In this document: piece after piece, positions 1,667-5,295 of the stretch
How the letters are laid out: each line of letters opens with the position of its first letter
Numbering within the stretch: position 1 is the first letter of the stretch
Assembly (NCBI GenBank): GCA_018817545.1
Contig: JAHITL010000040.1
Span: forward strand, 1-8,294
Direction of reading: 5' to 3'
DNA: 8,294 nucleotides
Source: Patescibacteria group bacterium
GTDB lineage: Bacteria > Patescibacteriota > Patescibacteriia > Patescibacteriales > GWC2-42-12
The notes under the pieces: model-generated
Told to the model about the DNA's origin: nothing
Seen by the model: only the letters and a program-made list of their open reading frames with translations
The model's database searches: none
Position numbers and translations under genes: made by a program

Positions 1667-1739
1667 AGCCGTTGCGCGGAATTGAACCGCGGACCTACTC
1701 CTTACCATGGAGTTGCTCTACCAGCTGAGCTACAACGGC
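1667..1739 (-). tRNA. tRNA-Thr (GGT), intact
   Basis: A 73-nt class I tRNA. The acceptor strands GCCGTTG and CAACGGC pair perfectly. The D-arm is GCTC-AGCTGGTA-GAGC. The anticodon arm ACTCC-ATGGTAA-GGAGT gives anticodon GGT (Thr). The T-arm is CGCGG-TTCAATT-CCGCG. The discriminator reads T, and the next bases are CCG, so CCA is not encoded. Its first 45 nt are also the 3' end (14 codons plus TAG stop) of the GIY-YIG ORF upstream. A damaged copy of its 5' half lies 305 nt upstream at 1995-2044. All stems are intact, so this is the functional copy. Confidence 0.97.
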
Positions 1740-1991
1740 ATTTTCTAACATCATCTTTATTTCAATTTCCAATTGTTTTCCACCCTTCAATCTTTTTAAA
1801 TATCTTTCATATTTAGTAGCCTCAGGTTTTGTTTCAAAAATTTTAAAACAAATTAATTTAAAAGGACGACGATTCTTTGTTGATGGATTTAAACCAGTAT
1901 TATAAGAATCTAACCTATCTAATATATTACCAGAATAACCAATATATCTTCTTTGATCTTTTAATGATTTTAAAATATAGGTATAAAACAT
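1695..1991 (-). CDS. GIY-YIG nuclease family protein overlapping tRNA-Thr
   Basis: Predicted 98-residue single-domain GIY-YIG endonuclease of the small YhbQ/UPF0213-like type. Motifs: N-terminal YTYILKS (3-9, the GIY position), RYIGYS (15-20, YIG), the conserved arginine R26 in LDRL, STKNRRPF (37-44) and the putative catalytic glutamate E62 in KYERYLKR. The usual His of the 'HN' pair is Tyr here (SYN, 29-31). The start is ATG at 1991, because AAGGAG (2001-1996) lies 4 nt before it and the GIY-YIG fold begins at once. The frame stays open upstream to 2117, but that part translates tRNA and spacer DNA. An in-frame ATG at 2006 also exists. The last 14 residues (AVVAQLVEQLHGKE) and the TAG stop are encoded by the first 45 nt of intact tRNA-Thr. 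Family call is firm; activity and DNA target are unknown. Confidence 0.88.
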   Translation of the reverse strand: MFYTYILKSLKDQRRYIGYSGNILDRLDSYNTGLNPSTKNRRPFKLICFKIFETKPEATKYERYLKRLKGGKQLEIEIKMMLENAVVAQLVEQLHGKE

Positions 1992-1994
1992 AAA

Positions 1995-2044
1995 ACTCCT
2001 TACCATGCCCCGCAAATGCGGGGTACCAGCTGAGCTACAACGGC
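1995..2044 (-). pseudogene. tRNA-Thr 5'-half relic interrupted by a GC hairpin
   Basis: It matches tRNA-Thr from acceptor nucleotide 1 through the 3' anticodon stem (ending GGTAAGGAGT), then stops; there is no variable loop, T-arm or 3' acceptor strand. Nine bases (GAGCAACTC: the 3' D-stem strand, base 26 and most of the 5' anticodon stem) are replaced by the 16-nt self-complementary CCCCGCATTTGCGGGG (2008-2023). It therefore cannot fold as a tRNA. Its terminal AAGGAG (2001-1996) now lies directly before the GIY-YIG start codon and is the only clear Shine-Dalgarno sequence seen in the window. Confidence 0.92.
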
Positions 2045-2070
2045 AAATAAAAAAATTTTCAATTTTCACA

Positions 2071-2112
2071 TTTACAATTTTTAAAAAATCAATCTTAAAA
2101 CAAAATTGTAAA
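2071..2112. repeat. AT-rich inverted repeat between TPR gene and tRNA relic
   Basis: tttacaatttt (2071-2081) and aaaattgtaaa (2102-2112) are perfect 11-nt complements around a 20-nt loop. It lies 19 nt past the TPR stop codon, on the way into the tRNA/GIY-YIG region. The stem is nearly all A-T, so any terminator role would be weak. The tRNA promoter should also lie nearby, but no convincing -35/-10 pair was seen. Confidence 0.5.
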
Positions 2113-2131
2113 AACAAAAATCAAAAATTAA

Positions 2132-3001
2132 TTACAACTCATCAATCTGTTTTTTAAATAACTCAATTTTCTTATTTTCTGGATTAGCCGCTACTAACTT
2201 GTCATAGGTGTCTAACGCTAATATTTTATCTTTTATCATTATACTTAATTCCAACATTGTGTCAAGAAAACGAGGATGATTTGGCTCTATTTCTAAGCCT
2301 TTTGCTAAACTGCTAATAGCCTCTGGTAAATTATCTAATGCTTGATAAACCAATGCTAAGCTATAAAAAGTCTGGGCATTTTGCTTATTTCCTTTTAATG
2401 ATTCAATATAGTCACACTCAGATTGACTAAGACCGTCTTTTTCATTGGCAATTTGCGCTAAATTATCAGAAGTATCTTTATCATCTTGTTTTAATTTTAA
2501 AACATGTTCAAATGCTTGTTTAGCCTCTTCAAAACTTTTTTGTTCAAAATATAACCGCCCCAACTCTTCAAATGCTCTAATATTTTTACTATCTAAACCT
2601 ATGATTTTAATATATTTTTTTTCTGCCATCGCCAAATTATCTTGTTTTTTTAACACAATTGCCTCGTCAAATAACTGATCAATCGCTAGCTTGTCATTAT
2701 TTAAATTAAACGCTGGTTTTTGATATTCATCTTTTAATCTTTGCAATTTTTTATATAACGAACTAAATAAATTATTAAAAACTTTTACCAATGGCTCAGT
2801 AAATCTAATAAATTGAGACCACCATTTAATAACACTTCTTTTTAATCTTGCGCCAATAATTTGTTCTTTAATTTTAGCTTCTTTTTCAGCAGGAATATTT
2901 TTTACATCAAGAGTCGCCAAAAGAGGAAATTTTTTAAAAATAATAACAATAACTATAATTAAACAAACTAAAATTAAAATTAAAGGAATAATATTATACA
3001 T
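2132..3001 (-). CDS. Membrane-anchored TPR-repeat protein
   Basis: A 289-residue protein of unknown specific function. Residues 4-22 form one strongly hydrophobic segment (IIPLILILVCLIIVIVIIF), followed by KK, which suggests an N-terminal membrane anchor. Residues ~38-95 are basic and helical with a WW pair at 60-61. From ~107 onward there are tetratricopeptide-like helix pairs: ~107-140 (...AMAEKKYIKIIGLDSK), ~141-174 (AFEELGRLYFEQKSFEEAK), ~208-241 (TFYSLALVYQALDNLPEAI, then EIEPNHP) and a final one at ~242-276 (ending KLVAANPE). TPRs act as protein-binding scaffolds. Topology by the positive-inside rule is uncertain; the TPR part may be cytoplasmic. It starts 17 nt downstream of fba and is probably in the same operon, though no glycolytic link is implied. 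The start ATG at 3001 has no Shine-Dalgarno sequence. Confidence 0.85.
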   Translation of the reverse strand: MYNIIPLILILVCLIIVIVIIFKKFPLLATLDVKNIPAEKEAKIKEQIIGARLKRSVIKWWSQFIRFTEPLVKVFNNLFSSLYKKLQRLKDEYQKPAFNLNNDKLAIDQLFDEAIVLKKQDNLAMAEKKYIKIIGLDSKNIRAFEELGRLYFEQKSFEEAKQAFEHVLKLKQDDKDTSDNLAQIANEKDGLSQSECDYIESLKGNKQNAQTFYSLALVYQALDNLPEAISSLAKGLEIEPNHPRFLDTMLELSIMIKDKILALDTYDKLVAANPENKKIELFKKQIDEL

Positions 3002-4214: not shown

Positions 4215-4988
4215 TTATAAACTGGAAGCTATTTTAAAGAATTCATCTGCTTTGAGACTCGCCCCACCAACTAATAAACCATCTATATTTTCTAAATTAG
4301 CAAAACCTTTAACACTTTTGCTGTCAATACTACCTCCATAAATTATACGAAAATTATTACTTACCACTTCTACGCCGAACATATCATTTAAGGTTAACTT
4401 AATGATTTTATGAGCATATTCAGCTTCAGTAGGCTCAATGGCAGTTCCTGCTCCTTGTCCAGAACTAATTGCCCAAATTGGCTCATAAGCAATAATTATT
4501 TGCTGATTACCCAGAACATCAACACCGCTTAAAGCCTGTTGCAATTGATCAACTAAAACAAAATCACGCTGATCTGTCTTCTTCTCTTCCCAACTCTCAC
4601 CAATACAAATAATTGGAGTTAATTTTTCAGTATTAACAACTGCTTTAACTTTTTTATGCACCATTTCATAATTTTCTGATAAATACCTTCGTCGTTCACT
4701 ATGACCAATAATAACATACTCGCAACCAAGCTCGACAAGCATAGTAGGAGAAATTTCTCCAGTATATGTACCTTTATCTTGCCAAAAAACATTCTGCGCG
4801 CCTAATTTCAATGGCGTTTTACCAATAATTTCTCCTACTTTTGCTAAAGCAGGAGCTGCGCAACAAATAACAGCTTCACTGCCAGAAAAATCTTTAAACT
4901 TTTTTGCAAATTCATTTGCAGTAGCTAATGTCTCTTGTAAATTTAAATACATCTTCCAATTAGCAATAATTATTTTTTTAGTAGCCAT
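4215..4988 (-). CDS. tpiA: Triosephosphate isomerase
   Basis: Cytoplasmic TIM-barrel enzyme interconverting dihydroxyacetone phosphate and glyceraldehyde 3-phosphate in glycolysis/gluconeogenesis. The 257-residue length is normal (~250). Catalytic residues are present: N10 and K12 in IIIANWKMY, H96 in IIGHSERR and E169 in AYEPIWAI. Phosphate-binding elements YGGS (217-220) and LLVGGASL (238-245) are intact. Loop 6 reads EPIWAISSGQGAG (169-181) in place of the usual EPVWAIGTGK, followed by a few extra residues (TAIEP) before the next helix. The start ATG at 4988 begins the conserved N-terminus directly (MATKKIIIANWK) and has no Shine-Dalgarno sequence. Upstream lies a ~90-nt leader made largely of 7-nt repeats, with a good promoter at 5084-5112. 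Downstream, 323 nt on, is fba. Confidence 0.98.
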   Translation of the reverse strand: MATKKIIIANWKMYLNLQETLATANEFAKKFKDFSGSEAVICCAAPALAKVGEIIGKTPLKLGAQNVFWQDKGTYTGEISPTMLVELGCEYVIIGHSERRRYLSENYEMVHKKVKAVVNTEKLTPIICIGESWEEKKTDQRDFVLVDQLQQALSGVDVLGNQQIIIAYEPIWAISSGQGAGTAIEPTEAEYAHKIIKLTLNDMFGVEVVSNNFRIIYGGSIDSKSVKGFANLENIDGLLVGGASLKADEFFKIASSL

Positions 4989-4995
4989 AAAGTAT

Positions 4996-5067
4996 GAATT
5001 AGGAATTAGGAATTAGGAATTAGGAATTAAAAAATCTCAAATCTTAAATCTCAAATCTCAAATCTCA
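4996..5067. repeat. Double heptamer array in the tpiA leader
   Basis: Two adjacent 7-nt arrays. Positions 4996-5029 are gaattag repeated four times plus gaatta. Positions 5033-5067 are aatctca five times, with one aatctta variant. They lie between the predicted tpiA transcription start (~5077) and its ATG, so they would form most of the 5' leader (CTAATTC and TGAGATT repeats in the mRNA). The first array is the reverse complement of the aattcct array between the tRNA genes at 1614-1634. Confidence 0.88.
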
Positions 5068-5222: not shown

Positions 5223-5257
5223 GGGTCTGTCGCCGAATACCCCGCATTTGCGGGGTA
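5223..5257. repeat. Half palindrome with GC hairpin (nested repeat copy 2)
   Basis: GGGTCTGTCGCCGAA (5223-5237) is followed by the self-complementary taccccgcatttgcggggta (5238-5257). The left outer arm and centre match the 1166-1215 palindrome, but the right outer arm is missing (taaaattcac follows instead). The preceding bases, gccaaatatcatattc, also resemble those upstream of copy 1. It lies in the LCP gene's 5' leader and could form an RNA hairpin ~40 nt before the start codon. Confidence 0.85.
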
Positions 5258-5295
5258 TAAAATTCACACTTTAATTAACAAATTTACATTATATT

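Follow-up and report, generated by a model that had tools for sequence, protein, structure and literature searches.

The window analysed here is an 8,294-nt stretch of the forward strand of contig JAHITL010000040.1 (GenBank assembly GCA_018817545.1), from a Patescibacteria group bacterium. It contains an open reading frame (ORF) for a small predicted GIY-YIG nuclease that lies between a broken and an intact copy of a tRNA-Thr gene. An earlier note, written from the letters alone, had proposed this arrangement as a minimal selfish element that targets tRNA genes; comparison with related genomes supports the proposal, the tests that the note itself had suggested having come out positive. Judged by sequence comparison, the unit is real and mobile, targets tRNA genes and has one nuclease gene. 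We consider it fairly probable that the window carries a 0.3-kb insertion, made of the nuclease gene and a tRNA repeat, which entered tRNA-Thr by what is likely homing and left a complete tRNA downstream.

A GIY-YIG gene between two copies of tRNA-Thr

The unit consists of the following parts, given in window coordinates.

1667-1739, minus strand: complete tRNA-Thr(ggt) as rebuilt or spare copy, the most downstream part of the unit (Rfam, 68.1 bits; ARAGORN, 1665-1739)
1695-1991, minus strand: GIY-YIG ORF of 98 aa, the sole gene of the unit (ATG at 1991, stop at 1695-1697)
1995-2007, minus strand: broken copy, tRNA-Thr nt 31-43 (anticodon loop and 3' strand of the anticodon stem)
2008-2023, no strand: 16-nt palindrome CCCCGCATTTGCGGGG (tRNA strand), in place of tRNA nt 22-30
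2024-2044, minus strand: 5' end of the broken copy, tRNA-Thr nt 1-21, at the original tRNA start position

The 3' end of the ORF overlaps the complete tRNA-Thr by 45 nt, while the tRNA-Thr 5' piece as a whole (1995-2044) ends at tRNA nt 43, three bases from the start codon of the ORF. Two blocks of 22 and 13 identical nt had been described as offset by exactly 305 nt, which is correct for the 22-nt block (2024-2045 against 1719-1740) and incorrect for the 13-nt block (1995-2007 against 1697-1709), whose offset is 298. Similarly, the broken 5' half is present as described, but it did not arise by a simple cut, 9 nt of the tRNA (GAGCAACTC, tRNA strand) having been swapped for the palindrome at 2008-2023. 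An AAGGAG motif in the anticodon stem of the broken copy would act as the ribosome binding site of the ORF.

As the earlier note had proposed, the 98-aa nuclease is the only gene of the unit, its ORF filling the space between the tRNA copies. Rfam found no intron in the window at E≤1 and the tRNA beside the ORF is complete, so that the gene is free-standing, outside any self-splicing intron or intein, and the arrangement is not that of a group I intron. Elements borne by an integrase use and restore tRNA genes, and the unit could be the remnant of an ordinary one; we find this scarcely credible, since there is no integrase, no stretch between the tRNA copies is left over by the GIY-YIG ORF, and small units of the same kind occur at many tRNAs.

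Empty sites in related genomes

Thirteen genomes of the same family were compared, and a gene upstream of the unit that served as anchor was found in all 13 (G and L numbers are our labels for genomes and loci). Six of them (G001, G002, G003, G004, G006 and G007) have a single intact tRNA-Thr followed by tRNA-Tyr; these are the empty sites that the earlier note had asked for, and one of the six, G001, shares its genus with the window genome. G001 and the window have 22 identical bases before the tRNA or the 5' piece, the same 73-nt tRNA, present once in G001, and 4 matching bases after it. It follows that the window has an insertion of ~0.3 kb and that the 5' piece is the old start of the tRNA. 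Through these empty sites, comparison of the sequences establishes the insertion itself.

The GIY-YIG ORF is held at this locus by three of the 13 genomes, namely G000, G012, where it is frameshifted, and G009, whose copy ends at the contig end with no 5' piece visible. The gene is accordingly present in some alleles of one locus and absent from others, as homing genes are. In two further genomes (G005 and G008), the anticodon loop of tRNA-Thr is interrupted and a different ORF comes before the gene, one of 198 aa in G008 (L109) and one similar by eye in G005 (L113). In G010 (L107), a complete foreign tRNA-Thr is nested between hairpin arms within a split host tRNA-Thr, with no GIY-YIG ORF, which is possibly a non-autonomous form. 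G011, with its match at a contig end, was left out of this classification. Inspection by eye had suggested a group I intron in the tRNA-Thr of G008 and G005 and a LAGLIDADG-like product for the 198-aa ORF; Rfam found no such intron, the ORF gave only a sub-threshold match to DUF3606, and both suggestions are unproven.

Filled and empty sites were also found at other tRNA genes. At tRNA-Arg, G033 is filled and G052 empty, with flanks 96% (left) and 92% (right) identical and a 27-nt overlap. At tRNA-Ser, G036 is filled and G046 empty, the left flank matching at 78% and the right flank having no match. At tRNA-Tyr, the filled site is that of G052, single tRNAs being found in G033, G045, G014 and G057. 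G018 was rejected as an empty tRNA-Ser site because other sequence precedes its tRNA. What precedes the tRNA at this G018 site (L192), the counterpart of the filled site of G036, is an ORF that looks RAYT-like by eye, together with palindromes.

These sites bear on the simplest alternative, that two ancestral tandem tRNA genes existed and one of them decayed around an unrelated small ORF. The two copies are near-identical within a locus (610/627 nt), as that history would have it. It is contradicted by the empty sites, since 6/13 family genomes, like the empty Arg and Ser sites, have a single tRNA, and also by the recurrence of the ORF within 50 bp of 16 tRNA isotypes (see below), and we regard it as very improbable.

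On the minus strand, read in the direction of the tRNA, the locus runs from the TPR-type gene through the 5' piece, the GIY-YIG ORF, tRNA-Thr(ggt) and tRNA-Tyr to the L33-like ORF. The surrounding features are as follows.

2045-2131, minus strand: left flank between the 5' piece and the anchor gene
2132-3001, minus strand: gene read by eye as TPR-type, the anchor for the empty-site search
1556-1474, minus strand: tRNA-Tyr
1397-1242, minus strand: small ORF read by eye as ribosomal protein L33

Recurrence at tRNA genes and fidelity to one isotype

Relatives of the window ORF were matched 98 times at E≤1e-6 in 38 of 61 genomes, and all 98 loci were retrieved. The nearest tRNA gene lies within 50 bp in 45/98 loci, within 100 bp in 50/98 and within 300 bp in 64/98. 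All 64 of these tRNAs are on the strand of the ORF, 49 downstream and 15 upstream of it. Control windows taken from the same loci at a distance of 700 nt or more had a tRNA within 50 bp in only 42 of 1960 cases on the same strand and in 9 on the opposite strand; the enrichment at tRNA genes that the earlier note had predicted is thus real. The 45 ORFs with a tRNA within 50 bp represent 16 isotypes.

In a tree of the 98 ORFs, clades follow the isotype of the neighbouring tRNA, with SH-aLRT values of 100 for Thr, 98 for Glu, 97 for Cys, 98 for Leu-caa and 99 for Asp together with one Met. The nearest ORF from another genome is at the same isotype in 40/64 cases (mean 5.9 and maximum 15 over 300 shuffles), and the tree implies 30 changes of isotype, compared with at least 42 in 100 shuffles. 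By the nearest-neighbour test, clades keep one target across hosts, as expected of homing genes, and the same nuclease does occur at other tRNAs with matching halves, as had been proposed. Comparison among loci shows that such ORFs recur at many tRNA genes, that nuclease clades are faithful to their isotype, that ORF and tRNA are strictly co-oriented and that the ORF has a complete tRNA next to it.

Members of the tRNA-Thr clade come from three families of the order (G000, G044 and G050). A second set of 53 loci, retrieved from named genomes and sharing at least three contigs with the first (L115, L120 and L126), adds one Portnoybacteria and one Falkowbacteria genome to it. L118, on a contig binned as Thermodesulfovibrionia, is a member of the same clade, 69% identical to the window ORF; it reflects either inter-phylum transfer or a binning error. 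By pattern match, 24 of 49 homologues read into tRNA-Thr at their C-terminus and 4 begin in the 5' piece, which bears out the 'VAQLVEQ'-type, tRNA-derived protein tails mentioned in the earlier note.

In this second set, which was counted without controls, a tRNA lies within 50 bp of 35/53 ORFs, always on the same strand, and a partial tRNA copy stands on either side in 30/53. The loci with a tRNA this close come from Patescibacteria, Gracilibacteria, Ignavibacteria, Melioribacter, Bacteroidetes and Elusimicrobia, and from one bin each of Calditrichia, Omnitrophota and Thermodesulfovibrionia. At the tRNA loci of Ignavibacteria and Bacteroidetes the layout is mirrored, a complete tRNA-Cys (once tRNA-Pro) being followed by the ORF and then, mostly, by a 3' piece. 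The three mirrored loci inspected (L124, L133 and L145) each have a hairpin in the 3' piece. The 5' form, which had been thought peculiar, is therefore matched by 3' forms.

Partial copies of the adjacent tRNA

Counting matches at E≤0.01 only, and taking weaker ones up to E=1 as chance, we found the neighbouring tRNA partially copied on the other side of the ORF in 44/64 loci, compared with 4/320 when other loci and other isotypes served as controls and 1/59 at positions 700-1050 nt away in the same locus. The placement of the ORF between a broken and an intact copy, first noticed in the window, is thereby confirmed, and the duplicated tRNA halves are a regular feature of these loci. A piece beyond the tRNA was found in 14/64 loci (1/50 in controls 700-1050 nt beyond), and 49/64 loci have a piece in one place or the other. 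Where the tRNA is downstream, a piece lies across the ORF in 38/49 loci, and 33 of these 38 pieces begin at tRNA nt 1. Identity upstream of nt 1 extends over at most 5 nt in 30 of the 33, the exceptions being L071 (14), L073 (8) and L082 (52).

In the fuller forms (L003, L004, L071, L079, L117 and L118), a whole tRNA is enclosed by a piece on either side. The two outer pieces of L003 are complementary (GCCGAGA/TCTCGGC) and the inner tRNA differs from them (GCCGTCT..AGACGGC), so that in this locus a host tRNA was split and a foreign tRNA supplied. Across 33 loci, piece and rebuilt tRNA agree at 610/627 nt, whereas rebuilt tRNAs agree between genomes at 548/640. Since agreement is greater within a locus than between genomes, the repeated copy may be derived from the host. 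These data agree with the statement that the 5' half is carried by the unit, and also allow a host-derived copy.

The starting point of the pieces could also point to RNA, if tRNA cleaved in the anticodon loop, by the encoded protein or by a different enzyme, yielded halves that were then written back into the genome. The pieces mostly begin at nt 1 of the mature tRNA and often end at nt 35/36, within the anticodon. In the pairs of empty and filled sites, however, the 5' piece occupies the old locus next to the old flank, and is therefore original DNA, and the unit has no reverse transcriptase; an origin at the RNA level accordingly seems highly unlikely.

Hairpins and sites outside tRNA genes

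Many broken copies bear short GC-rich hairpins, often two in succession, whose sequences vary between genomes. Across the ORF, a GC hairpin lies within 120 nt in 39/64 loci and in 15/234 control windows. Where a piece lies across the ORF, 31/44 loci have a hairpin at a break and 13/44 have none; 27/36 hairpin-flanked breaks touch the D, anticodon or T loop, and 36% of positions fall in such loops. The earlier note described the layout of the element correctly, but overlooked the GC-rich hairpins, the mirror forms and the forms with a whole spare tRNA.

The palindrome CCCCGCANNTGCGGGG has 26 copies in the 0.66-Mb genome of the window and 1 in a genome of the same genus, and copies are often nested in a larger palindrome, GGGTCTGTCGCCGAATA..TATTCGGCGACAGACCC. 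Three carriers have 26, 24 and 4 copies and the other 10 family genomes 0-4, which is only suggestive of a tie to the tRNA-Thr nuclease, a looser hairpin pattern being common in non-carriers. The nesting of CCCCGCANNTGCGGGG and the hairpins at tRNA loops make it seem that loops of hairpins take up further hairpins. Dispersed palindromes occupy three places in the window.

1166-1215: dispersed palindrome
2008-2023: dispersed palindrome (the one in the broken tRNA copy)
5223-5258: dispersed palindrome

The window also has AT-rich, AATTAGG-type repeats at 1613-1655 and 4987-5029, mutually inverted and 91% identical over 43 nt.

Not all relatives are at tRNA genes. Flanking inverted repeats with a score of at least 10 surround 19 of the 34 ORFs with no tRNA within 300 bp and 1 of the 64 with one. 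ORFs with no tRNA nearby and with flanking inverted repeats include L010, L011, L012, L014, L015, L025, L032, L035, L037, L038, L045, L049, L050, L051, L060 and L097; the repeats are ~16-22 nt long with mismatches (for example CCCCGCACCTTTTAAGC .. GCTTAAAAGGTGCGGGG), and the arrangement resembles a 0.3-kb transposon whose gene is of the GIY-YIG type. Two ORFs are located within other RNA genes, L083 in one for 16S rRNA and L087 in one for RNase P RNA (rnpB); a third, L022, borders an RNase P RNA gene at its 5' end, where Rfam has its match beginning 36 nt after the ORF match. In all three the ORF stands between pairing strands, and these rRNA and rnpB sites would fit a preference for hairpin loops.

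That preference is the core of the leading alternative, in which an SLX1-like nuclease cuts the loops of hairpins or cruciforms and hairpin-bounded units enter tRNA loops, hairpins of RNA genes and further palindromes without a homologous donor. It finds its main support in the rRNA and rnpB sites, and it is also favoured by the loop position of the breaks, the excess of GC hairpins across the ORF, the hairpin-bearing pieces at both ends of the six fuller forms, the inverted repeats around tRNA-less ORFs and the structure of the protein, the closest folds being of HIGLE/SLX1 type and UPF0213. Yet the strong fidelity of clades to one isotype looks like a fixed target, and most of the genomes (49/61) contain dispersed CCCCGC..GCGGGG-type hairpins anyway. 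We regard such hairpin-directed transposition as possible, though rather unlikely.

The predicted nuclease

The window ORF matches the GIY-YIG domain PF01541 (E=1.2e-15) and contains the catalytic domain alone. An AlphaFold model of the first 83 residues has a pLDDT of 92.6, and the closest solved folds are those of the structure-selective nucleases At-HIGLE/Slx1 and of UPF0213 proteins; domain and fold together place the protein in the GIY-YIG superfamily. In sequence it matches the UPF0213 proteins BH0048 (1zg2, E=1.8e-5) and EF2693 (1ywl, E=5.9e-4). The catalytic Tyr, Tyr, Arg, His and Glu, whose roles we take to be those of I-TevI, are conserved among the 98 relatives (Y5 in 95, Y16 in 96, R26 in 98, H30 in 96 and E62 in 95). 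Purifying selection is indicated by ratios of nonsynonymous to synonymous divergence (dN/dS) of 0.08-0.15 in 8 of 15 pairs with estimable dS, values that are rough because dS is high (1.5-2.5) in these pairs.

NCBIfam has no family for the ORF, and PHROGs has no family matching it at E≤1e-3. A phage origin was considered and rejected, a scan of viral contigs and PHROGs having yielded no relative and phage records only 6 weak matches, none of which covers 80% of the query by the count of the search tool.

A possible mode of spread

If the insertion spreads by homing, as we think probable, the encoded nuclease would cleave intact genes for a single tRNA isotype, within or close to the anticodon arm. 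Repair would then copy the unit into the cut gene, with the tRNA halves as homology arms. The complete copy would be functional and rescue an essential gene, so that the insertion is tolerated, and the hairpins might protect the broken copy from cutting or from recombinational loss. Cutting and homing by the nuclease, the rescue and the part played by the hairpins are all inferred.

Several observations weigh against this interpretation. As to target, the complete tRNA-Thr of the window is identical to the tRNA of the empty site, so that a recognition site wholly within the tRNA would be cut in the carrier too. As to the enzyme, the window ORF has Tyr at position 30, where 96/98 relatives have His and one other has Asn, and the window's own copy may for that reason be inactive or impaired; the relative in G012 is frameshifted. 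As to generality, 34/98 relatives have no tRNA within 300 bp, 20/64 tRNA-adjacent loci have no piece across the ORF, and where the tRNA is upstream just 6/15 loci have one. The close match of the copies within a locus is what local duplication would be expected to give. The tree of the 98 ORFs, built on 77 columns, has weak resolution; almost all of the named genomes are metagenome-assembled; and at tRNA-Tyr G052 and G033 had to be rejected as a clean pair, the G033 tRNA being a different allele and the right flank lying on another contig.

A bolder version combines homing with the hairpins. A home-and-rescue drive would have a structure-selective nuclease of ~85 residues invade the hairpin loops of tRNA and other RNA genes, wreck the copy that is entered by means of hairpins whose movement it also aids, and gain tolerance through delivery of a complete replacement tRNA; each lineage would keep to its isotype, and nearly all isotypes would have been colonised in candidate-phyla bacteria and in several other phyla. 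We offer this version tentatively, as an idea that is more doubtful than homing into tRNA-Thr.

If the homing interpretation is right, the unit would be a very small self-spreading element, consisting of one catalytic domain of ~85 residues and tRNA halves, and a selfish nuclease would persist in an essential gene without an intron by supplying the repaired gene, the same logic as that of engineered cleave-and-rescue drives. It would explain the tRNA-derived protein tails in databases (24/49 homologues) as well as pseudo-tRNAs, would perhaps account for some of the hairpins with which reduced genomes are burdened, and would provide a testable system for the entry of hairpins into tRNA loops. 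Whether further GIY-YIG proteins are molecular parasites is a question already raised in PMC1564403.

Comparison with known systems

A search of mostly open-access literature returned no account of tRNA genes being interrupted and rebuilt by GIY-YIG units. GIY-YIG ORFs have been reported in rRNA insertions of the candidate phyla radiation (CPR), where they are sparse and are described outside the context of homing (PMC11270868). The likeness is that GIY-YIG ORFs lie in CPR RNA genes; the rRNA insertions are mostly at the tops or bases of stem-loops, and the main text of that paper contains no word starting with "tRNA" (PMC11270868). The window ORF shares its domain with the UPF0213 proteins BH0048 and EF2693, which are hypothetical proteins according to their entries. 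We know of no UPF0213 protein that is mobile.

Integrative elements with a tyrosine recombinase target tRNA genes and leave a complete tRNA. The unit of the window differs in having no integrase, in its size of 0.3 kb and in repeating the 5' part of the tRNA, with 3' forms in other phyla. The double-hairpin elements of Allomyces mitochondria are short, GC-rich, paired and mobile hairpins; GC-rich hairpins are common to both systems, theirs being in fungal mitochondria, and to our knowledge they have no link to a nuclease inside tRNA genes. IS200/IS605 elements and REP-RAYT systems have subterminal hairpins next to a small nuclease gene. Their enzyme is an HUH transposase, whereas the window unit has the GIY-YIG domain and fold, its ORF yielding PF01541 only and no HUH Y1 transposase.

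The nearest known counterpart is SegB, reportedly the subject of work by Brok-Volchanskaya in 2008. According to PMC13096335, SegB of phages T4 and T6 is a free-standing GIY-YIG homing endonuclease that cuts inside phage tRNA genes, which segB often adjoins. As in the units studied here, a GIY-YIG gene stands next to tRNA genes of many isotypes, and SegB cuts in tRNA genes, as the nuclease of these units would; the same source describes microhomology between the 5' end of tRNA-Tyr and the 3' end of segB (PMC13096335). By that description segB is a phage gene in a tRNA cluster, whereas the unit of the window is an insertion into one tRNA gene that leaves a broken half behind.
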